From an uncultured Halieaceae bacterium (GTDB taxonomy: Bacteria > Pseudomonadota > Gammaproteobacteria > Pseudomonadales > Halieaceae), in NCBI GenBank assembly GCA_913056165.1, contig CAJXMD010000012.1, positions 1 through 44,668 on the forward strand: a stretch of DNA of 44,668 nt, written 5' to 3'. A program made the position numbers and the translations under genes. A model generated the notes under the pieces. That model made no database searches, was not told where the DNA came from, and saw only the letters and a program-made list of their open reading frames with translations. Below, piece by piece: positions 36,765 to 44,668 of the stretch (positions are counted from its first letter, which is position 1; each line of letters starts with the position of its first letter).

Positions 36765-38126
36765 TTAGCTACTAAGTTCGGTAACCAGTTTGCCAAGACT
36801 TTCTTTGGCGTCGCCAAATAGCATGCGGGTGTTTTCCTTATAGAACAGCGGGTTTTCAATACCCGCAAAGCCAGAGGCCATTGATCGCTTGAGCACAAAG
36901 ACTGTCCTTGCATCGGCAACATTGATTACCGGCATGCCATAAATGGGGGACGATTCGACCTCGCGGGCTGCCGGGTTCACCACGTCATTAGCGCCAATAA
37001 CAATCGCCACGTCCACGTTATCCATGCGCGGATTGATTTCGTCCATCTCCAGAAGCTGGTCATAGGGAACGTCGGCCTCTGCGAGCAAAACGTTCATGTG
37101 ACCAGGCATACGACCCGCTACCGGGTGAATGCCAAAGACCACCTCCGCACCATTGGCTTCCAGCAGATTTGAAAGCTCTTTCACTACATGCTGGGCCTGT
37201 GCGACGGCCATGCCGTAACCCGGGATAATCGCCACGCTACTGGCTGCTTCCAGAATGTAGTAGGCGTCTTCTGCATTGATGGGCTTGATCTCGCCTTCAA
37301 TTTCAGTGACCTCGTTGGAGACACTGGCGAAACCTGAGAACAACACGTTGGTCAAAGAGCGGTTCATTGCCTTACACATGATTTGGGTAAGAATGATGCC
37401 CGAGGCCCCCACCAGAGAGCCGGCCACGATCAGCACGTTGTTATCAATCGCAAAACCTGCCGCGCAGGCCGCGAGACCAGAATAAGAGTTCAGCAGAGAG
37501 ATAACCACTGGCATGTCTGCGCCGCCAATCGGGATGACAGCCATCACGCCAAACACCAGCGAAAGACCAATCACCATGTAGAGCCAGTTAGGGTTAGTCG
37601 GCTCCATGGTAAACATGACGGCGCCTGAGAAAATGCCGATGATGACCAAGGAGTTAACAATCTGCTGTCCGCGGAAGACGATTTGTCCACTACCCATGAT
37701 CTCACTGAGCTTGCCGTAAGCGATCAAAGAACCCGTCAGGGTAACTCCACCAATAAGGATGGATAAGACGATGGTTACGAGGGTAAAGGTCGCCGCGTCG
37801 GGGGTGAGTGCAGCCCAGCCAACCAACAGCGACGCCGAACCCCCAAGGCCATTAAACAGTGCGACCATCTCGGGCATCGAGGTCATCGCCACGGCTCTGG
37901 CAGCTACCGCGCCAACGAGACCGCCGGCGACCATGCCGCCAATAATCCAGGTGTAATCAACGATTCCCTGATCCATCAATGCAACGACAATAGCGACCAA
38001 CATACCCGCCGCGGAGACCATGTTGCCCCGGCGAGCAGTCGCCGGAGAGCCCAGCATTTTCAAGCCGAAAATAAATAAGCCGGAGGCAACGACGTAACCC
38101 AGACCTGTAATAACGCTTGTATCCAT
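36765..38126 (-). CDS. pntB: Proton-translocating NAD(P) transhydrogenase subunit beta
   Basis: PntB carries most of the membrane domain and the NADP(H)-binding domain of the transhydrogenase, which makes NADPH from NADH using the proton gradient. The 453-residue protein has about eight membrane segments, then 'IIPGYGMAVAQAQHVVKEL', 'FGIHPVAGRMPGHMNVLLAEA', 'INPRMDNVDVAIVIGANDVVNPAA' and 'VFVLKRSMASGFAGIENPLF', all NADP-domain signatures. It follows pntAb by 2 bases and is terminated by an intrinsic hairpin. Confidence 0.97.
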   Translation of the reverse strand: MDTSVITGLGYVVASGLFIFGLKMLGSPATARRGNMVSAAGMLVAIVVALMDQGIVDYTWIIGGMVAGGLVGAVAARAVAMTSMPEMVALFNGLGGSASLLVGWAALTPDAATFTLVTIVLSILIGGVTLTGSLIAYGKLSEIMGSGQIVFRGQQIVNSLVIIGIFSGAVMFTMEPTNPNWLYMVIGLSLVFGVMAVIPIGGADMPVVISLLNSYSGLAACAAGFAIDNNVLIVAGSLVGASGIILTQIMCKAMNRSLTNVLFSGFASVSNEVTEIEGEIKPINAEDAYYILEAASSVAIIPGYGMAVAQAQHVVKELSNLLEANGAEVVFGIHPVAGRMPGHMNVLLAEADVPYDQLLEMDEINPRMDNVDVAIVIGANDVVNPAAREVESSPIYGMPVINVADARTVFVLKRSMASGFAGIENPLFYKENTRMLFGDAKESLGKLVTELSS

Positions 38127-38128
38127 GA

Positions 38129-38413
38129 TTAGTCCTCCCGCTTTTTAAAGAAGCCGAGCATGCGATCGGTAACCAAGTACCCACCAATCACGTTGACCGT
38201 TGCAAGAGCAACAGCGCCCGCCCCCAGCCACTGGGCAAGATCACCCTGGCCATTGCCAGCGAGGGCCACGGCACCAACCACGGTAATCCCCGAGATCGCG
38301 TTAGCACCAGACATCAAGGGAGTATGGAGTGTCGCAGGGACTTTATTGATCAACTCAAAGCCGAGAAAAACCGACAACATGAGGATAAACAGGAGATATT
38401 CTGCACCATTCAT
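38129..38413 (-). CDS. pntAb: NAD(P) transhydrogenase subunit alpha 2 (membrane part)
   Basis: The 94-residue protein holds three or four membrane segments (about 5-22, 33-52, 58-80) and the TLHTPLMSGANAISGITVVGA motif of the alpha-subunit C-terminus. In E. coli this is fused to the soluble NAD domain; here alpha is split, as in Rhodospirillum and Pseudomonas-type operons. It lies between pntAa and pntB with 2-base gaps. Confidence 0.95.
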   Translation of the reverse strand: MNGAEYLLFILMLSVFLGFELINKVPATLHTPLMSGANAISGITVVGAVALAGNGQGDLAQWLGAGAVALATVNVIGGYLVTDRMLGFFKKRED

Positions 38414-38415
38414 AA

Positions 38416-39558
38416 TCAGCCGGCTCCTTCGATTATATTTTTGATAGTCGGGTGAACAACCGCGCCGCCATGAGTGATCACACAGCCCGGAAGAATGTCA
38501 TTCTCCATATCGAGGACAAACTGCTTGGCCTCGGTGTCCCAGGTGTCTTCGACGAGGTTAAACATATTGCTGGCGTACATCTGGGTGGCGTCTCGAGCAA
38601 CAAGGTTGGCCAGGCTGCCGGTACCGATGATCGTGACACCATTTACCTCAACGACTTCATTGGGCACTGAACCTTCCACGTTGCCACCAGTTTCCGCTGC
38701 CATATCGACGATGACCGAGCCCGGCGCCATGCCCTCAACCATATCCCGGGTCACCAGCAGAGGCGGCTTGCGACCAAATACCTGCGCAGTCGTGATTAAC
38801 ACATCGGACTCCGCAATCACTTCCTTCTGGGCCTGTCGCTGCATCTCCACCTGCTCAGGTGTTAACTCCTGCGCATAGCCATCCTTGGTTTGGCCGGTGT
38901 CACCGAGATCGATTTCCAAAAACTTGCCCCCCAGTGATTGCACCTGCTCAGCCACCACAGGGCGGGTATCAAAAGCTGTCACCCTTGCTCCCAGTCTCTT
39001 CGCCGTTGCAATGGCCTGAAGGCCCGCAACCCCAGCGCCAATGATGAAAACCTTCGCCGGCTTCAGTGTTCCTGCCGGTGTCATCATCATGGGAAAAATT
39101 CGTGGCAAGCGAGTTGCAGCGAGCATGACTGCAATGTAGCCCGCCAGATTCGCCTGAGAGCTCAACGCATCCATTTTTTGGGAACGAGTGGACCGGGGAA
39201 TCATCTCCATACTAATCGCGGTAATCTCCCGCGCCGCAAACTCACGGATCAGATCGTGCTCGTTGAAAGGATCCAGGTAGGAAACATGAATGCACCCGGG
39301 CTTGAGCTTGGCCACTTCATCCAGCTCAGGCTTTCGGAGCCTCAGGACCATGTCGCCGCTACCTAACAGGGCATCTCTGTCCGATTCAATAGTTGCGCCA
39401 ACCTCTCTGAACGCGTCGTCCGAGTGCCCGGCACCTTTTCCGGCACCGGACTCGATGGCAACGTCGGCGCCAAGCCGCACGAGCTTTTTGACTGTGTCAG
39501 GGGTGACGGACGCACGGTCTTCACCCGGGTGTGTCTCACGGGGTATCGCTAGTCGCAT
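38416..39558 (-). CDS. pntAa: NAD(P) transhydrogenase subunit alpha 1 (NAD-binding part)
   Basis: The 380-residue soluble subunit binds NAD(H). It resembles alanine dehydrogenase: N-terminal 'RLAIPRETHPGEDRASVTPDTVKKL', 'SRTRSQKMDALSSQANLAGYIAV' (printed as IPRSTRSQKMDALSSQAN in the protein), the Rossmann loop 'VFIIGAGVAGLQAIATAKRLGA' and 'GSVIVDMAAETGGNVE'. It is the first gene of pntAa-pntAb-pntB. chrR ends 115 bases upstream on the same strand, so read-through from the sigma-factor operon is possible. Confidence 0.97.
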   Translation of the reverse strand: MRLAIPRETHPGEDRASVTPDTVKKLVRLGADVAIESGAGKGAGHSDDAFREVGATIESDRDALLGSGDMVLRLRKPELDEVAKLKPGCIHVSYLDPFNEHDLIREFAAREITAISMEMIPRSTRSQKMDALSSQANLAGYIAVMLAATRLPRIFPMMMTPAGTLKPAKVFIIGAGVAGLQAIATAKRLGARVTAFDTRPVVAEQVQSLGGKFLEIDLGDTGQTKDGYAQELTPEQVEMQRQAQKEVIAESDVLITTAQVFGRKPPLLVTRDMVEGMAPGSVIVDMAAETGGNVEGSVPNEVVEVNGVTIIGTGSLANLVARDATQMYASNMFNLVEDTWDTEAKQFVLDMENDILPGCVITHGGAVVHPTIKNIIEGAG

Positions 39559-39624
39559 AGTGGTTTGGCCTGATATTAGTTGTGTTAGTAGAGACCCTTA
39601 CGTGCTGGCCGTGAACAAGACCCT

Positions 39625-39640
39625 ACGGGATGAATCCCGT
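39625..39640. repeat. Palindrome between chrR and pntAa
   Basis: ACGGGAT-GA-ATCCCGT has perfect 7-base arms. As RNA on either strand it forms a 6-bp stem with a 4-base loop but has no following T-run, so it is not a classical terminator. It lies about 67 bases upstream of the pntAa ATG and may be an operator or an RNA stabiliser. Confidence 0.5.
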
Positions 39641-39673
39641 CCAGCCTTGAGGCTATCCTTGCCAATACAGCTT

Positions 39674-40330
39674 TTAGCTGGCTCGAAGCTGCAAAAACGG
39701 ATTCAACCAGCGATAATTCCAACCAGTAAACCGTAGCGGAGCATCCAGCACCGCCAAACAAATACAATCCTCGCCGTCGAGGGCAACAGGCGCATGCTTC
39801 TCATCAGCAACCCGGTATATGAAATCACCCGCATGGTAATGGCCATTGCTGTCCGAGAAGCCTCCCTCGAGTACCAGTGTCATTTCGGTACCGGCATGTT
39901 GATGCTCAGGGATACGGCCGCCCGCCGCGATTCGATACAGTGCGAACTCGTAATCACTGTCGCCGGTAGATAAATAGCTGATGCTAAGACTCTTGGTGAT
40001 GCGCTTCCATACCAGCTGACTGAAGTCACCATTAATGATCCTGCGGAGAAGTGCGGGTAACTCAACTGCAGCTTTTGCCTGAGGGTGATGAAGAGGCTCA
40101 GGCTCATCTAGCCTACCAAGCACTGCGTCGAGGACCGCTTCCGAGACAGGCACAGGTTCCAACCGTTCCAGCATGACGCCGCCAATATTTTGCATTTGGT
40201 CGTACACGCGGCGGCATCGGTCGCAATAGTTGAGATGAGCGGAGATGCACGCTGCCTGTGCTACGGGGAGTGTCCCCGCCGCATACTCCATTAAAAAATC
40301 GTTACTTGGATGATGATTTGCCATAGCCAT
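39674..40330 (-). CDS. chrR: ChrR-type zinc anti-sigma factor
   Basis: ChrR holds its ECF sigma factor inactive until singlet oxygen or similar stress triggers its loss. The 218-residue protein has the N-terminal anti-sigma zinc site (H6/H7, H32, C36, C39 in HLNYCDRC) and a C-terminal cupin domain. The cupin keeps the ligands of Rhodobacter ChrR: H143-x-H145-x3-E149 and H179 (Rhodobacter H141, H143, E147, H177). Both zinc sites therefore look intact and the stress-sensing half should work. It follows the sigma gene on the same strand after 94 bases. Confidence 0.92.
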   Translation of the reverse strand: MAMANHHPSNDFLMEYAAGTLPVAQAACISAHLNYCDRCRRVYDQMQNIGGVMLERLEPVPVSEAVLDAVLGRLDEPEPLHHPQAKAAVELPALLRRIINGDFSQLVWKRITKSLSISYLSTGDSDYEFALYRIAAGGRIPEHQHAGTEMTLVLEGGFSDSNGHYHAGDFIYRVADEKHAPVALDGEDCICLAVLDAPLRFTGWNYRWLNPFLQLRAS

Positions 40331-40424
40331 AATGGTTTCTTTCTCTGTGCCGGCGATTTCCCCTGAATCCGCCGACAGCTTCTGTTACTGATGAACTCTC
40401 CTACGCGCCCTTCTTTTATTTGGT

Positions 40425-41045
40425 TTACTGCCGATCCATTTGTACCTGCAGTTTTTGTATCGCCAGTCGGACCCTGGACTTCACCGTACCCAAGGGCAGG
40501 TCAAGCTCAGCGGCCGCCTCGGAATGAGATTTCCCCTCCATATACACTTTTGCGAGGATTTGCGCCTGATCTGGGGGCAGCTGGCCCATCAAATCCCGGA
40601 CTCTGTCGGAGCCGCGCCGGTTATGGAGCACCGCAAAGGGTTCTTCCCCCTCGACCTCGATACTCAAATCCTCAGCGGCAAGCTGGGTATCAAATTTCTG
40701 AAGCCGCCTGAACATGTCGGTACGACAATTCCGCGCGATGGTGTAGATCCACGTACTGGCGGCGGCTTTCTCAGGATTGAAGCCGTCAGCCTTCTGCCAG
40801 ACCTTTAGCATGACCTCTTGGACCAGTTCATCGGCGTGACTGGCGGATAAGGAGGAGCCAGCTAGGGCAAACGCCTTGATAAGCGGTGCAAAATGACGAA
40901 AAAAGCGCGTAAAGGCTGCACGATCGTGACTTTTACCGATATGAACGAGACATTCGCTCCATTCATCGGTGCGTCGCCCAGTCGGTGCGGACCACCCGCT
41001 TGCGCGCTGAGCTCCGACCTCATTTTCGCCTTTCTCTTCTACCAT
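40425..41045 (-). CDS. ECF11-type RNA polymerase sigma factor (RpoE/ChrR pair)
   Basis: The protein (206 residues from ATG 41045; a TTG four codons earlier is possible) has region 2 (about 45-115: 'FFRHFAPLIKAFAL', 'DELVQEVMLKVWQKADGFNPEKAAASTWIYTIARNCRTDMFRR') and region 4 (about 150-200: 'LMGQLPPDQAQILAKVYMEGKSHSEAAAELDLPLGTVKSRVRLAIQKL'). Its partner, the downstream ChrR, places it in the ECF11 group best known from Rhodobacter sphaeroides RpoE, which runs the singlet-oxygen response. It is divergent from the amine oxidase-DUF1365-CFA operon, whose promoter matches the ECF11 motif. No matching motif was seen in front of the sigma gene itself. Confidence 0.92.
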   Translation of the reverse strand: MVEEKGENEVGAQRASGWSAPTGRRTDEWSECLVHIGKSHDRAAFTRFFRHFAPLIKAFALAGSSLSASHADELVQEVMLKVWQKADGFNPEKAAASTWIYTIARNCRTDMFRRLQKFDTQLAAEDLSIEVEGEEPFAVLHNRRGSDRVRDLMGQLPPDQAQILAKVYMEGKSHSEAAAELDLPLGTVKSRVRLAIQKLQVQMDRQ

Positions 41046-41143
41046 GGGGGGGTTCAAAGCTCAGTCAGGGCCTTCAGGATACACCGGCTGGCAATAATGC
41101 ACAAAAATGATTTTGCATGCTTCCATGCCACTGTGGGGGGCCA

Positions 41144-41169
41144 TGATCCGGCTCAAGGCAAGCAACGTA
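41144..41169 (+). promoter_or_regulatory. Predicted ECF11 (RpoE-ChrR) promoter
   Basis: TGATCC (41144-41149), a 16-base spacer and CGTA (41166-41169) match the -35 and -10 elements I recall for Rhodobacter-type RpoE promoters. It lies 44 bases before the GTG start of the FAD-protein gene, in the region divergent from the sigma-factor gene. Confidence 0.75.
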
Positions 41170-41212
41170 CTCTCGTTATCTAAACCACCCATCCCTTTCG
41201 AGGCACCCACGT

Positions 41213-42478
41213 GTGAAGGTAGCAATAATCGGGTCGGGCATCTCCGGGCTGGGCTGCGCCCATCGTCTGGTTGCCCAACGGCACGATGTTTTCGTCTTCG
41301 AAGCCGCCGATCGCATTGGCGGCCACACGGCTACTTATGACGTAAAACTTGGGACCCGTCGCTACGCAATCGACACTGGCTTCATTGTCTACAACGACCA
41401 TACCTATCCAAATTTCATTGAGCTGCTTGAAGACCTTGGCGTCGCCACCAAGAAGACTTCCATGGGATTTTCCGTTCGCGACGATGCCTCGGGATTGGAA
41501 TATGCGGGGAAAAATCTCAACACCCTCTTTGCCCAGCGCCGCAACCTGCTTTCCCCACGATTTCTCAACATGGTCCGGGAAATACTTCGCTTTAATCGCG
41601 AGTCAGTGGCGGATCTCGATGCCGGCAAACTTGATGGGGGTGAAACCCTGGGCAGCTACCTACGGCGCAATCGTTACAGCGAGACCTTCTGTCGCCATTA
41701 TCTGCTGGCAATGACCTCCGCTATCTGGTCGGCGGACTTCGCCGATGCGAGCGAATTTCCCGTGGAATTTTTTATTCGATTCTTCAGAAATCACGGTCTG
41801 TTACAGGTCAAGGACAGGCCACAGTGGCGAGTCATTGAAGGGGGCAGCCGAGAATACCTCCAGCCCCTGATTTTCGGCTTTGAAGATCGAATCTACACCG
41901 GCAGGGGCGTCAAATCAGTAGAGCGCCCCAACTCGGGTGGCGTCAATCTCCGCTTCACCGATGGTACTGCTGACCACTTTGACCAGGTTGTCATCGCTAC
42001 ACACTCCGATCAGGCACTGGCACTTTTATCAGATCCCAGCGCACAAGAAACCGAGATTCTGGGCGCCATACCATACAGAGATAATGACGTCGTCCTGCAT
42101 ACCGATGACCGGCTGCTACCACGTAACCGACAAACTTGGTCCAGCTGGAATTACCGTCTTCGGCCCGGTAACAACCGGGCGGTGGTGACCTACAACATGA
42201 ATATTCTGCAGGGTATCGAAGCGCCGGAAACCTTCTGCGTCACGCTAAACGATACCGAATCGATAAACCCCGCACGTATCCTGGGTCGATTCAATTATGC
42301 GCACCCCCAATTCACCGTTGCAGGAGTTCAGGCTCAATCCCGGTGGGGTGAGATCAACGGCGGCGGTTGCACCTGGTTCTGCGGCGCCTACTGGCACAAT
42401 GGCTTCCACGAGGATGGCTTGACCAGCGGACTGCGCGTAGCAGATGCATTATCCGCCACCAAGGCTGTGGCGGCCTGA
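41213..42478 (+). CDS. FAD-dependent amine-oxidase-like protein of the ECF11 cluster
   Basis: The 421-residue protein starts at GTG with the FAD-binding Rossmann loop VAIIGSGISGLGCAHRLVAQ and the 'DVFVFEAADRIGGHTATYDV' motif. The rest resembles the NAD(P)/FAD-binding 'amine oxidase' group found in rpoE-chrR clusters ('IDTGFIVYNDHTYPNFIELL', 'SAIWSADFADASEFPVEFF'). In Rhodobacter, proteins of this kind belong to the furan-fatty-acid pathway (Ufa proteins), but I cannot equate this one with a particular Ufa enzyme. GAGG lies 9 bases before the GTG. The stop is one base before the DUF1365 gene. Confidence 0.88.
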   Translation: MKVAIIGSGISGLGCAHRLVAQRHDVFVFEAADRIGGHTATYDVKLGTRRYAIDTGFIVYNDHTYPNFIELLEDLGVATKKTSMGFSVRDDASGLEYAGKNLNTLFAQRRNLLSPRFLNMVREILRFNRESVADLDAGKLDGGETLGSYLRRNRYSETFCRHYLLAMTSAIWSADFADASEFPVEFFIRFFRNHGLLQVKDRPQWRVIEGGSREYLQPLIFGFEDRIYTGRGVKSVERPNSGGVNLRFTDGTADHFDQVVIATHSDQALALLSDPSAQETEILGAIPYRDNDVVLHTDDRLLPRNRQTWSSWNYRLRPGNNRAVVTYNMNILQGIEAPETFCVTLNDTESINPARILGRFNYAHPQFTVAGVQAQSRWGEINGGGCTWFCGAYWHNGFHEDGLTSGLRVADALSATKAVAA

Positions 42479-42479
42479 G

Positions 42480-43229
42480 ATGACGCTGCCATCCCGGTTG
42501 TATCGAGGGACCTTGTGGCACTGCCGCCACAGCCCAAAGAAGCACGCGTTCCGGTATCGGGTTTTTATGCCCCTGGTGGATGTGAGTGAACTTCCTGAGC
42601 TCGTAGATGATGTTCCTCTCTGGTCGGCAAGACGATGGGCCTGTGCACGGTTTCTTCGCAAAGACTTTTTGGGTGACCCGGAGAAACCACTGCTTGATGA
42701 GGTTCGACAGCGGATCTACGAAGAAACGGGAGACACCCAGCGGGGCAAAGTGCTGTTACTGGCGAACTGGCGTTACTTTGGCGTGCAGTCGAATCCGATT
42801 GCCTGTTATTTTTGTTTTGACGAAAGCACCCAACGGCTGAGCCATGTAGTTGCGGAGGTAACCAATACTCCATGGGATGAGCGCCACAGCTACGTACTTC
42901 CCGTTACCGATTCCTCGGGCCGGCTAAACACCGAATTCTCAAAAGCGATGCACGTCTCGCCCTTCAACCCTATGGATATGACCTACCACTGGTCGAGCAC
43001 CGCACCCGCCGAGACACTGTCAATTAAGGTCAGCAACTATCAGGGCGACAAAAAGGTATTTGACGCAACTCTAACACTTGAGGCAGAGCCTTTTACACCG
43101 CGAAATCTGGTTCTCGCCATTCTGGGTGTACCCCTGATGACGGCCAAGGTTACCGCGGCGATTTATTGGGAGGCATTACGATTGTGGTTGAAGGGTATTC
43201 CGCTGTACCCTCATCCAAAGGGGGGGTGA
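42480..43229 (+). CDS. DUF1365 family protein
   Basis: From the ATG at 42480 the protein has 249 residues. It shows the DUF1365 features 'SRLYRGTLWHCRHSPKKHAFRYRVFMPLVDV', 'VLLLANWRYFGVQSNPIACYFCFD', 'EVTNTPWDERHSYVLP' and 'KAMHVSPFNPMDMTYHW'. The function is unknown, but the family nearly always lies beside an FAD amine-oxidase-like protein and a CFA-family methyltransferase, and in Rhodobacter is under RpoE-ChrR control. A longer frame from 42444 would overlap the FAD protein. cfa follows after 43 bases. No transmembrane segment is obvious. Confidence 0.9.
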   Translation: MTLPSRLYRGTLWHCRHSPKKHAFRYRVFMPLVDVSELPELVDDVPLWSARRWACARFLRKDFLGDPEKPLLDEVRQRIYEETGDTQRGKVLLLANWRYFGVQSNPIACYFCFDESTQRLSHVVAEVTNTPWDERHSYVLPVTDSSGRLNTEFSKAMHVSPFNPMDMTYHWSSTAPAETLSIKVSNYQGDKKVFDATLTLEAEPFTPRNLVLAILGVPLMTAKVTAAIYWEALRLWLKGIPLYPHPKGG

Positions 43230-43272
43230 TGCCGTAACCTCATAACGGCTAACTCGGTTCAGGTAGGTAACG

Positions 43273-44529
43273 ATGAACAATACCAGTGTTCGTGAGATCC
43301 CCCGGCTTCCTTTGTTCGGCAAGCTCACCCACCCCAACGTCGCCCGGGATCTGCTACTCAGGCTACTTCGCAATTTAAAAGTAGGAACCCTCACCATTCA
43401 TGATAATGGTGAGGCGATCAAGCTTGGACACGATACTGACCCAAGCGCACCCCACGCAGAAGTCACCGTACACAACTCCCGTCTTTATTGGCGAGTGCTT
43501 ACCGGTGGCACCATCGGCTCAGGAGAAGCCTACATCGACGGAGATTGGAGTAGTCGCAACTTAACTGAGGTGACGCGACTGTTTTGCGCCAACATGCCAA
43601 CCATGGAAGCAATGCGTGGCAAGCAAAACTGGCTGACCCGCAGCGCCCTCAAATTCGCCCATCTCGGCAACCGCAACACCCTGAGCGGATCAAAAAAGAA
43701 CATCTCCGCCCACTATGATCTAGGAAATGACTTTTTCGAGCTGTTCCTGGACCCAACGATGATGTACTCATCGGCAGTCTTTCCTGATGAGTCAGAGGAT
43801 CTCAACACAGCGGCAGTACACAAGCTGGACCTGATTTGCCAATCTCTGGAGCTCAAACCGGAAGATCATTTGATTGAAATCGGGACAGGCTGGGGCGGTA
43901 TGGCAATTCATGCGGCCGAGCATTACGGCTGCCAAGTAACAACCACCACCATATCCAGGGAGCAATACCAGCACACCTGTGACGAGGTAGCCCGCCGGGG
44001 ACTGTCTGATCGAATCGCCGTCCTGTGCGAGGATTACAGAAACCTCACCGGTAAATTTGACAAGCTTGTTTCAATAGAAATGATTGAGGCGGTGGGCCAT
44101 GAGTTTTATGAAAGTTACTTTAGTTGCGTCAGCAAGCTACTGAAGCCCACAGGTAAAGCTGTCATTCAAGCAATCACCATGACGGACCAACGTTATGAAC
44201 AGGCGCGCGACTCAGTAGACTTCATCAAGCGCTATATTTTTCCGGGAGGCTGCCTCCCCTCCCTTAATATTATTAGCGAAAACCTTGCCCGCCATACCGA
44301 CCTGCAGCTGAGCGACCTGCGGGATATCACATTGGACTACGCCAAGACCCTCGAAGCATGGCACCATAGGTTCCTGAACCAATTGGATCAGGTCAAGGAT
44401 ATGGGCTTCGACGATCGTTTTATCAGAATGTGGCGCTTCTACCTGAGCTACTGTGAAGGTGGATTCCGCGAGCGCATCATTGGTACCTTTCAAATTACAA
44501 TGACTAAGCCCGGCTACCGACCGGTCTAA
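43273..44529 (+). CDS. Cyclopropane-fatty-acid-synthase-family SAM methyltransferase
   Basis: The 418-residue protein has an N-terminal lipid-binding domain (about 1-115) and a SAM methyltransferase domain with 'HYDLGNDFFELFLDPTMMYSS', 'IEIGTGWGGMAIHAAEHYG', 'SIEMIEAVGHEFY' and 'DFIKRYIFPGGCLPS', so it belongs to the CFA synthase family acting on phospholipid unsaturated acyl chains. E272 and Y356 match E. coli E239 and Y317. S167 and Q299 lie where E. coli has Cys139 and His266. In Rhodobacter a CFA-like enzyme methylates unsaturated chains toward furan fatty acids, so that reaction, rather than cyclopropanation, must be considered. A shared transcript with the FAD protein and DUF1365 is likely. 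Confidence 0.88.
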   Translation: MNNTSVREIPRLPLFGKLTHPNVARDLLLRLLRNLKVGTLTIHDNGEAIKLGHDTDPSAPHAEVTVHNSRLYWRVLTGGTIGSGEAYIDGDWSSRNLTEVTRLFCANMPTMEAMRGKQNWLTRSALKFAHLGNRNTLSGSKKNISAHYDLGNDFFELFLDPTMMYSSAVFPDESEDLNTAAVHKLDLICQSLELKPEDHLIEIGTGWGGMAIHAAEHYGCQVTTTTISREQYQHTCDEVARRGLSDRIAVLCEDYRNLTGKFDKLVSIEMIEAVGHEFYESYFSCVSKLLKPTGKAVIQAITMTDQRYEQARDSVDFIKRYIFPGGCLPSLNIISENLARHTDLQLSDLRDITLDYAKTLEAWHHRFLNQLDQVKDMGFDDRFIRMWRFYLSYCEGGFRERIIGTFQITMTKPGYRPV

Positions 44530-44542
44530 CGCGGGCGTACAC

Positions 44543-44668
44543 ATGCTGCTTTCACTTGCACCCATCGTACTGTTGGTGGGGCTACTCTCTGCCGCAGTAC
44601 AACTGTTCGGTTCTGACGCTTCATACGGGCCGAACCAGATCGCCCTCGTCGTGGCCACCGCAGCAGCG
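44543..44668 (+). CDS. NhaC-type Na+/H+ antiporter, N-terminal part (cut by window end)
   Basis: Forty-two codons from ATG 44543 to the window end read as a hydrophobic segment (LLSLAPIVLLVGLLSAAV) followed by 'LFGSDASYGPNQIALVV', which closely matches the first helix and 'ddalsGPNQIALll' loop of NhaC antiporters. The start is 13 bases after the cfa stop. No clear ribosome-binding site is seen. Only the N-terminus is present, so the identity is moderate. Confidence 0.65.
   Translation, partial: MLLSLAPIVLLVGLLSAAVQLFGSDASYGPNQIALVVATAAA

Follow-up and report, generated by a model that had tools for sequence, protein, structure and literature searches.

In Rhodobacter sphaeroides, the sigma factor RpoE and its zinc-binding anti-sigma factor ChrR, a pair given the name "ECF11" in one review (PMC6852236), are encoded beside ufaD and ufaO, an arrangement also described in other Rhodobacteraceae (PMC7074977). 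These two genes encode the desaturase UfaD (RSP1091) and the DUF1365 protein UfaO (RSP1090), and together with ufaM (RSP2144) they are reported to suffice for making furan fatty acids from the vaccenate chains of phospholipids (PMC7380195). Among gammaproteobacteria, Halomonas is described as having its three ufa genes in a row, with a UfaM that formed the methylated intermediate in Escherichia coli (PMC12089945); reported promoters of the ECF11 type are TGATCC-N16-CGTATT, with a mapped start, for Shewanella oneidensis rpoE2 (PMC4336711), and TGATC-N18-CGTAT for Vibrio cholerae (PMC5241685). Here we analyse contig CAJXMD010000012.1 of an uncultured Halieaceae bacterium, a stretch of 44,668 nucleotides (hereafter "the window"), near the end of which a sigma/chrR gene pair stands divergently from genes for an FAD protein, a DUF1365 protein and a CMAS-family protein (Table 1). 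Judged by sequence comparison, this locus is very probably an ECF11 sigma/ChrR singlet-oxygen switch with a local furan fatty acid operon as its target, in the genus Luminiphilus.

An ECF11 sigma/ChrR pair in a phototrophic host

An earlier note on this DNA had described the divergent layout, and profile and structure matches place every one of its genes where that note had put it. ChrR scores 177 bits against TIGR02451 (cut-off 124.5), and its nearest solved structures are the R. sphaeroides ChrR chains 2z2s_B and 2q1z_B; among 16 solved relatives of the sigma factor the nearest is R. sphaeroides RpoE (2q1z_A, E 2.4e-32), with the runner-up at 1.5e-13. The zinc ligands listed for R. sphaeroides ChrR are H6/H31/C35/C38 and H141/H143/E147/H177 (PMC6852236). 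All eight are present in the window protein, corresponding residue for residue, as H7/H32/C36/C39 and H143/H145/E149/H179, and the claim that both zinc sites are kept is thereby borne out. For the sigma gene, ATG 41045 is a likelier start than TTG 41057, this start being conserved in the alignment of relatives. Of the 32 same-genus loci, 27 have both sigma and chrR next to the ufa operon and two have sigma only; the remaining three have neither, their contigs ending there.

The gap between sigma and chrR is 94 bases in the window (40331-40424) and approximately 150-240 in the relatives that we group below as clade 2; the corresponding S. oneidensis genes are reported to overlap (PMC4336711). 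With a gap this wide, chrR might own a separate promoter.

The nearest named records are from uncultured Luminiphilus (L218, UfaO 79% identical; we label genomes G, loci L and contigs C), and the host genus is Luminiphilus, an aerobic anoxygenic phototroph. The genome to which the window belongs (G000; 2.43 Mb, 86.7% complete) contains two neighbouring Photo_RC genes on contig C33, which we read as pufL and pufM, and of 41 genomes sampled across Luminiphilus, 31 have Photo_RC genes. PpsR/CrtJ, which has been proposed to regulate photosynthesis genes in this bacterial group (PMC3666943, PMC2654016), was detected above cut-off in 36 of the 41, with a weak sub-cut-off match in the incomplete G000 assembly. 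A reaction centre in the same genome is a ready source of singlet oxygen for the switch, and it strengthens the earlier proposal of a photo-oxidative membrane-lipid response, which is well supported by homology.

From R. sphaeroides and Rhodopseudomonas palustris we infer the signal, the loss of ChrR, the enzyme steps and the lipid product; the regulatory steps, control of the operon by sigma among them, are read from the DNA. Singlet oxygen, plausibly arising from the cell's own bacteriochlorophyll, or the products of its attack, would lead to loss of ChrR, which otherwise would hold the sigma factor; freed sigma would then start transcription of the ufa operon at the promoter at 41144-41169. 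UfaM would methylate the vaccenoyl chains of phospholipids, UfaD would desaturate the methylated product and UfaO would close the furan ring, yielding oxidant-scavenging lipids. The pair could instead answer mainly another stress (organic peroxide, metal, ultraviolet light or nitrosative stress), with light acting indirectly. Organic hydroperoxides are reported to activate ECF11 systems also, the Caulobacter system responding, more slowly, to other inducers (PMC6852236), and S. oneidensis rpoE2 mutants are described as sensitive to peroxide and paraquat (PMC4336711); we nevertheless regard this as unlikely, since both the reaction-centre genes of the same genome and an ECF11-type box upstream of ppsR in clade 2 (see below) tie the system to photosynthesis.

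As the earlier note had observed, the operon contains no photolyase gene, yet G000 has three genes of the photolyase family at other places. We rejected photolyase as a nearby sigma target, as no ECF11-type site was found at any of the four photolyase loci read (L106-L109, from genomes other than G000).

A probable furan fatty acid gene set

Homologues of the FAD protein, the DUF1365 protein and the CMAS-type methylase stand together in the window, in an order conserved in relatives. Because the make-up of these three genes equals that of the proven R. sphaeroides set, the operon is read as ufaD-ufaO-ufaM, a furan fatty acid set and not a cyclopropane operon. The DUF1365 protein matches PF07103 at 263 bits (cut-off 25) and likelier starts at ATG 42480, one base past the ufaD stop; the CMAS protein matches PF02353 at 290 bits (cut-off 27).

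Such a CMAS match would also be expected if the last gene were an ordinary cyclopropane synthase in a sigma-run cyclopropane operon and the UfaD and UfaO homologues had some other function. Genes of this kind are often annotated as cyclopropane synthases (e.g. RSP_2144, PMC7074977; VC1122, PMC5241685), and E. coli overexpressing Halomonas ufaM is reported to form cyclic fatty acids besides the new methylated peak (PMC12089945). The window protein, however, falls under the cut-off of the cyclopropane synthase equivalog NF008686 (298.5 bits vs 400). It also carries Gln299 at the position of a His in E. coli Cfa that we take to be part of the Cfa bicarbonate site. Gln occupies this position in 116 of 118 CMAS proteins encoded directly after UfaO, the remaining two not being aligned there, and in none of the four CMAS proteins encoded elsewhere in the loci, all of which have His (matches below 100 bits were excluded, and a few genomes are counted twice). 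As the proven furan pathway, moreover, uses this same set of genes (PMC7380195, PMC12089945), we consider the cyclopropane alternative improbable: the gene that the earlier note had placed in the CFA family belongs to the CMAS family, but is not classed as a cyclopropane synthase.

The predicted UfaO structure (mean pLDDT 91.4) is strand-rich with C-terminal helices. Compared with the PDB, it has no match at E ≤ 0.001, and weak Foldseek leads (E 2e-3 to 1e-2) point to a Ycf58/fatty-acid-binding-like protein and to nitrobindin. In one relative (G010; L074 5042-5787) the DUF1365 gene is in two pieces, representing either a true break or an assembly error.

Table 1. Predicted features of the sigma/chrR-ufa locus, in window coordinates.
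Feature	Position	Strand	Basis
chrR, zinc anti-sigma factor (HHCC anti-sigma domain and cupin-like domain)	39674..40330	minus	TIGR02451; structural relatives; eight zinc ligands
ECF11-type sigma factor gene	40425..41045 (open frame from TTG 41057)	minus	Pfam Sigma70_r2 and r4_2; 2q1z_A match
ECF11-type promoter TGATCC-N16-CGTA, toward ufaD	41144..41169	plus	exact match; invariant boxes
ufaD-like FAD-dependent fatty-acyl desaturase, GTG start	41213..42478	plus	Amino_oxidase and NAD_binding_8; published ufa gene set
ufaO-like DUF1365 protein (proposed fatty-acyl monooxygenase)	42480..43229 (open frame from 42444)	plus	PF07103; 46-sequence alignment
ufaM-like SAM-dependent fatty-acyl methylase, CMAS family	43273..44529	plus	PF02353; Gln299
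NhaC-like Na+/H+ antiporter gene, first 42 codons	44543..44668, truncated at contig end	plus	relatives' N-terminus; TIGR00931, PF03553

The promoter facing ufaD

The TGATCC-N16-CGTA promoter that had been noted in the shared intergenic region is an exact match (TGATCC at 41144-41149, CGTA at 41166-41169) and the single occurrence of the strict pattern in the 2.43 Mb of G000. It shares boxes and spacer length with the S. oneidensis rpoE2 promoter (PMC4336711). For comparison, 58 genomes were searched for DUF1365, and 49 of them, G000 among these, gave a match. Of 36 same-genus genomes, 32 had a match and all of their loci were fetched; of 21 same-order genomes, 16 had one and eight loci were fetched, making 40 loci in total. 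Two of these loci (L043 and L065) have no DNA upstream of ufaD; the other 30 same-genus loci and the window divide into clade 1 (21 regions, window included) and clade 2 (10 regions). In a FastTree phylogeny of UfaD and UfaM (43 rows), clade 2 forms a group with support 1.0 that is sister to one half of clade 1; "clade 1" is therefore a grade and not a clade. Three loci with short proteins (L043, L045 and L065) are not in the tree, L045 being assigned to clade 1 by similarity.

All 21 clade 1 regions carry TGATCC-N16-CGTA toward ufaD, with a mean identity of 1.00 in the boxes, 0.57 in the spacer and 0.48 in the flanks. Because the boxes are invariant while spacer and flanks diverge, the site is more than a chance match. 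That it is non-functional, and the operon read from a housekeeping promoter, is highly improbable: clade 2 does manage without a ufaD-facing site, but invariance in 21 of 21 regions against 57% spacer identity argues otherwise, as does a consensus scan of 39500-44668 that returned one sigma-70-like site, inside ufaM (44057-44084), and none in the shared intergenic region.

A relaxed scan of G000 (TGATCC-N15..17-CGTA) returns four places, only that at 41144 having N16; the other three lack a convincing target by eye, and a broad regulon in G000 deduced from the promoter pattern alone was rejected. From the sites listed by a genus-wide search with the strict pattern, 30 loci were retrieved and read; several of those read fall within long reading frames and were not counted as promoters.

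A PpsR-type operator at the clade 2 operon

Within the genus, the ufa operon appears to have passed from the damage-triggered sigma factor to the photosynthesis regulator PpsR in clade 2, where sigma would instead raise ppsR; we lean towards this reading with confidence only a little above even. None of the 10 clade 2 regions has a ufaD-facing ECF11 box (best matches 5-7 of 10 letters, like the controls), and at the place of the lost box they contain TGTATAT..ACA. In non-coding photosynthesis-cluster DNA, TGT-N12-ACA occurs 18 times in four clade 2 genomes, against 1-11 times for eight other spacings (highest N14), and 15 times in five other Luminiphilus genomes, including contig C33 of the window's own genome, against 0-4 for other spacings. 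We built a PpsR weight matrix from those 33 photosynthesis-cluster sites, none of them from ufa loci; 30 of the 33 training sites themselves reach 14-22, the other three staying below 4.

With this matrix, all 10 clade 2 ufa regions score 18.6-22.0, and for each of them none of 300 Markov shuffles scores as well. Over 310,629 positions of Luminiphilus ufa loci, scores of at least 17.5 (computed with a slightly different pseudocount) are reached by the ten clade 2 sites only. At the window ufa promoter no PpsR operator was found (best score -7.1, with 242 of 300 shuffles as good). Two clade 1 regions score 11.9 (L037; 1 of 300 shuffles as good) and 9.7 (L041; 0 of 300), and weak PpsR sites may be present in both.

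A TTGACA half-site precedes the clade 2 palindrome by 8 nt in nine regions and by 7 nt in one. It can be read as the right-hand part of a second PpsR site that is degenerate, and tandem PpsR sites with similar spacing are reported for Congregibacter litoralis (PMC2654016). The combination TTGACA-N7..8-TGTATAT marks the ufa site in 10 genomes, with a match elsewhere in G015 and G019. We rejected TTGACA as a sigma-70 promoter box, as TATATT lies only approximately 10 nt away.

ECF11-type boxes upstream of ppsR and DUF3833 genes

Upstream DNA of ppsR was taken from 36 genomes, namely 35 of the 36 above cut-off (G020 holds a fragment) and G012, which is below cut-off. TGATC[CT]-N16-CGTA is present upstream of ppsR in 10 of 10 clade 2 genomes (9-10 of 10 letters; G019 assigned to this clade by similarity) and in one of 26 others (G004; nine of the 26 absent from the tree), and G061 has a box with an N15 spacer; the reversed control never exceeds 8 letters. 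In clade 2, identity is 0.97 in the boxes, 0.85 in the spacer and 0.83 in the flanks. Because its boxes are just slightly more conserved than their surroundings, the ppsR box makes a weaker case than the ufaD box; G004 adds support, since its flanks are unrelated. A PpsR-type palindrome stands immediately upstream of the clade 2 box. Upstream of Pseudohaliea rubra ppsR there is no ECF11-type box (best 8 of 10 letters).

An altered specificity of the clade 2 sigma factor is unlikely, as its regions 2 and 4 show almost no differences and the strict TGATCC-N16-CGTA is kept upstream of DUF3833 genes in 10 of 10 clade 2 loci; because of the latter, the clade 2 sigma factor would still read the same promoter. 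Among 30 DUF3833 loci read, from 34 genomes with a match, six of the 20 others also have the box (with box: L188-L197, L201, L210, L214-L217). No DUF3833 match was found in the incomplete G000. In three of four loci with frames listed (L193, L214 and L217), DUF3833 is followed by a frame that looks DUF3429-like by eye; the DUF3833 lipoprotein gene and this frame probably form a second ECF11 operon in Luminiphilus. The strict pattern also occurs approximately 150 nt upstream of the gene for the Rieske iron-sulphur protein of ubiquinol-cytochrome c reductase in L084, L090 and L094; as the spacers there are partly conserved, these sites may reflect shared descent rather than function.

On the reading of a handover to PpsR, the singlet-oxygen sigma factor would drive the ufa operon directly in clade 1, and in clade 2 it would act on ppsR, which encodes a repressor of photosynthesis genes, with PpsR acting at the ufa operon. 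PpsR is usually a repressor, and the clade 2 operon would therefore be made together with the photosystem; it is possible that PpsR activates this operon instead. If the handover is real, lipid protection in clade 2 would be anticipatory, and shut-off of the photosystem would be the response to damage.

The sigma-facing side of the intergenic region

Two points weigh against seeing the locus as a sigma-run circuit on the R. sphaeroides plan. Clade 2 keeps its ufa operon without a ufaD-facing promoter of this type, so the operon does not strictly depend on sigma control. In the window, the best sigma-facing match has 6 of 10 letters, against 7 in the reversed control, and the circuit, as far as its promoters can be read from the DNA, is not a plain copy of that in R. 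sphaeroides, the sigma-facing box being missing.

A sigma-facing box usually signifies autoregulation, which is usual in the core regulon without being a defining trait of ECF11 systems. In Luminiphilus the box was found in 0 of 21 clade 1 and 0 of 10 clade 2 regions, where the closest matches agree in 5-8 of 10 letters, as do the reversed controls (the L052 contig stops before sigma, and the scan there covers the 230 bases before ufaD). Because it is missing in all 31 regions, the sigma gene seems to have lost box-type self-control in this genus. Boxes in both directions are present in Pseudohaliea rubra (L225), Haliea salexigens (L229) and UBA5044 (L231), and Haliea sp. Ww140 (L228) has a strict box toward sigma only.

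A GNATACAC motif (plus strand; GTGTATNC toward sigma) lies at 41077-41084 in the window and recurs, by eye, in most Luminiphilus regions, in clade 2 as GAATACAC and in L041 in a variant form. The present sigma promoter may include it.

A probable fourth gene and neighbouring frames

The contig ends 139 bases past ufaM, and a frame opens at 44543, 13 bases after that gene. Of the 32 same-genus loci fetched, one (L045) stops within ufaM; in each of the 31 readable loci (L036-L044, L046-L065, L068 and L074), from both clades, a frame with the same N-terminus lies 2-18 nt 3' of ufaM, and its copy in L037 scores 412 bits against the NhaC model TIGR00931 (cut-off 370) and also matches PF03553. Because this antiporter frame trails ufaM so closely in all readable relatives, the Luminiphilus operon is probably a four-gene unit, ufaD-ufaO-ufaM-nhaC, and the "three-gene operon" described before is probably an artefact of the window edge. 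In Pseudohaliea (L225) and Haliea (L229), no frame of at least 120 codons was found on the operon strand within 250 nt past ufaM.

On the other side, 115 bases beyond chrR, three minus-strand frames at 36765-39558 resemble NAD(P) transhydrogenase subunits, as recognised by eye.

Comparison with known systems

The locus places a singlet-oxygen switch and a furan lipid pathway inside gammaproteobacterial phototrophs that have a natural source of the signal. Comparison within the genus offers a direct test of stress-regulon rewiring, setting reactive protection in clade 1 against an apparent coupling to PpsR in clade 2, with sigma above the repressor, and the latter offers one possible way for singlet oxygen to shut down pigment synthesis in these organisms. 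In Dinoroseobacter shibae, the rerouting of porphyrin synthesis in light is reported to be under RpoE control (PMC10949492), and singlet-oxygen stress was thought to repress pigment via TspO (PMC3666943). Among the titles and abstract openings listed by searches of the open-access literature, and in passages of PMC3320616, PMC8307010, PMC10949492, PMC7074977, PMC3666943 and PMC2654016, we found no report of ECF11 control of ppsR or of PpsR control of ufa genes. The palindromes described for the PpsR/CrtJ regulon of C. litoralis (PMC2654016) are like the TGT-N12-ACA palindromes of Luminiphilus photosynthesis clusters and of the clade 2 ufa operon with its half-site 7-8 nt away; the C. litoralis sites are reported there in photosynthesis genes only, and the window ufa operon has no operator (-7.1).

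The comparison with Halomonas sp. YLGW01, likewise a gammaproteobacterium with three consecutive ufa genes (PMC12089945), was made via a Billgrantia relative (L275). UfaD, UfaO and UfaM of that relative are 57%, 48% and 45% identical to those of the window, and it differs in that the stretch fetched from it shows no match to sigma or chrR.

S. oneidensis and V. cholerae, unlike the window host, are not known to be phototrophs. Their RpoE2-ChrR (PMC4336711) and SigE-ChrR (PMC5241685) systems are alike in being gammaproteobacterial, in using the same promoter type and in including a cfa-annotated gene in the response; in S. oneidensis, cfa is reported to lie in a long operon with a photolyase gene, and rpoE2-chrR is autoregulated (PMC4336711).

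With R. sphaeroides RpoE-ChrR, the locus shares sigma and ChrR homologues, the eight zinc ligands, ufaDO adjoining rpoE-chrR, a promoter of the TGATC type, as in the family consensus, and a phototrophic host. The two differ in that ufaM (RSP2144) is separate from ufaDO (RSP1091/1090) in R. sphaeroides and joined to them in the window, in the genes that follow (RSP1089-1087 there, the antiporter gene here), and in the sigma-facing box, which the window does not have. The earlier note had pointed to the same genes forming one divergent unit in a gammaproteobacterium; that arrangement stands, but ufaDO beside rpoE-chrR and consecutive ufa genes had both already been published. The sensor-lipid system is thus already known, and it is its wiring that differs here.

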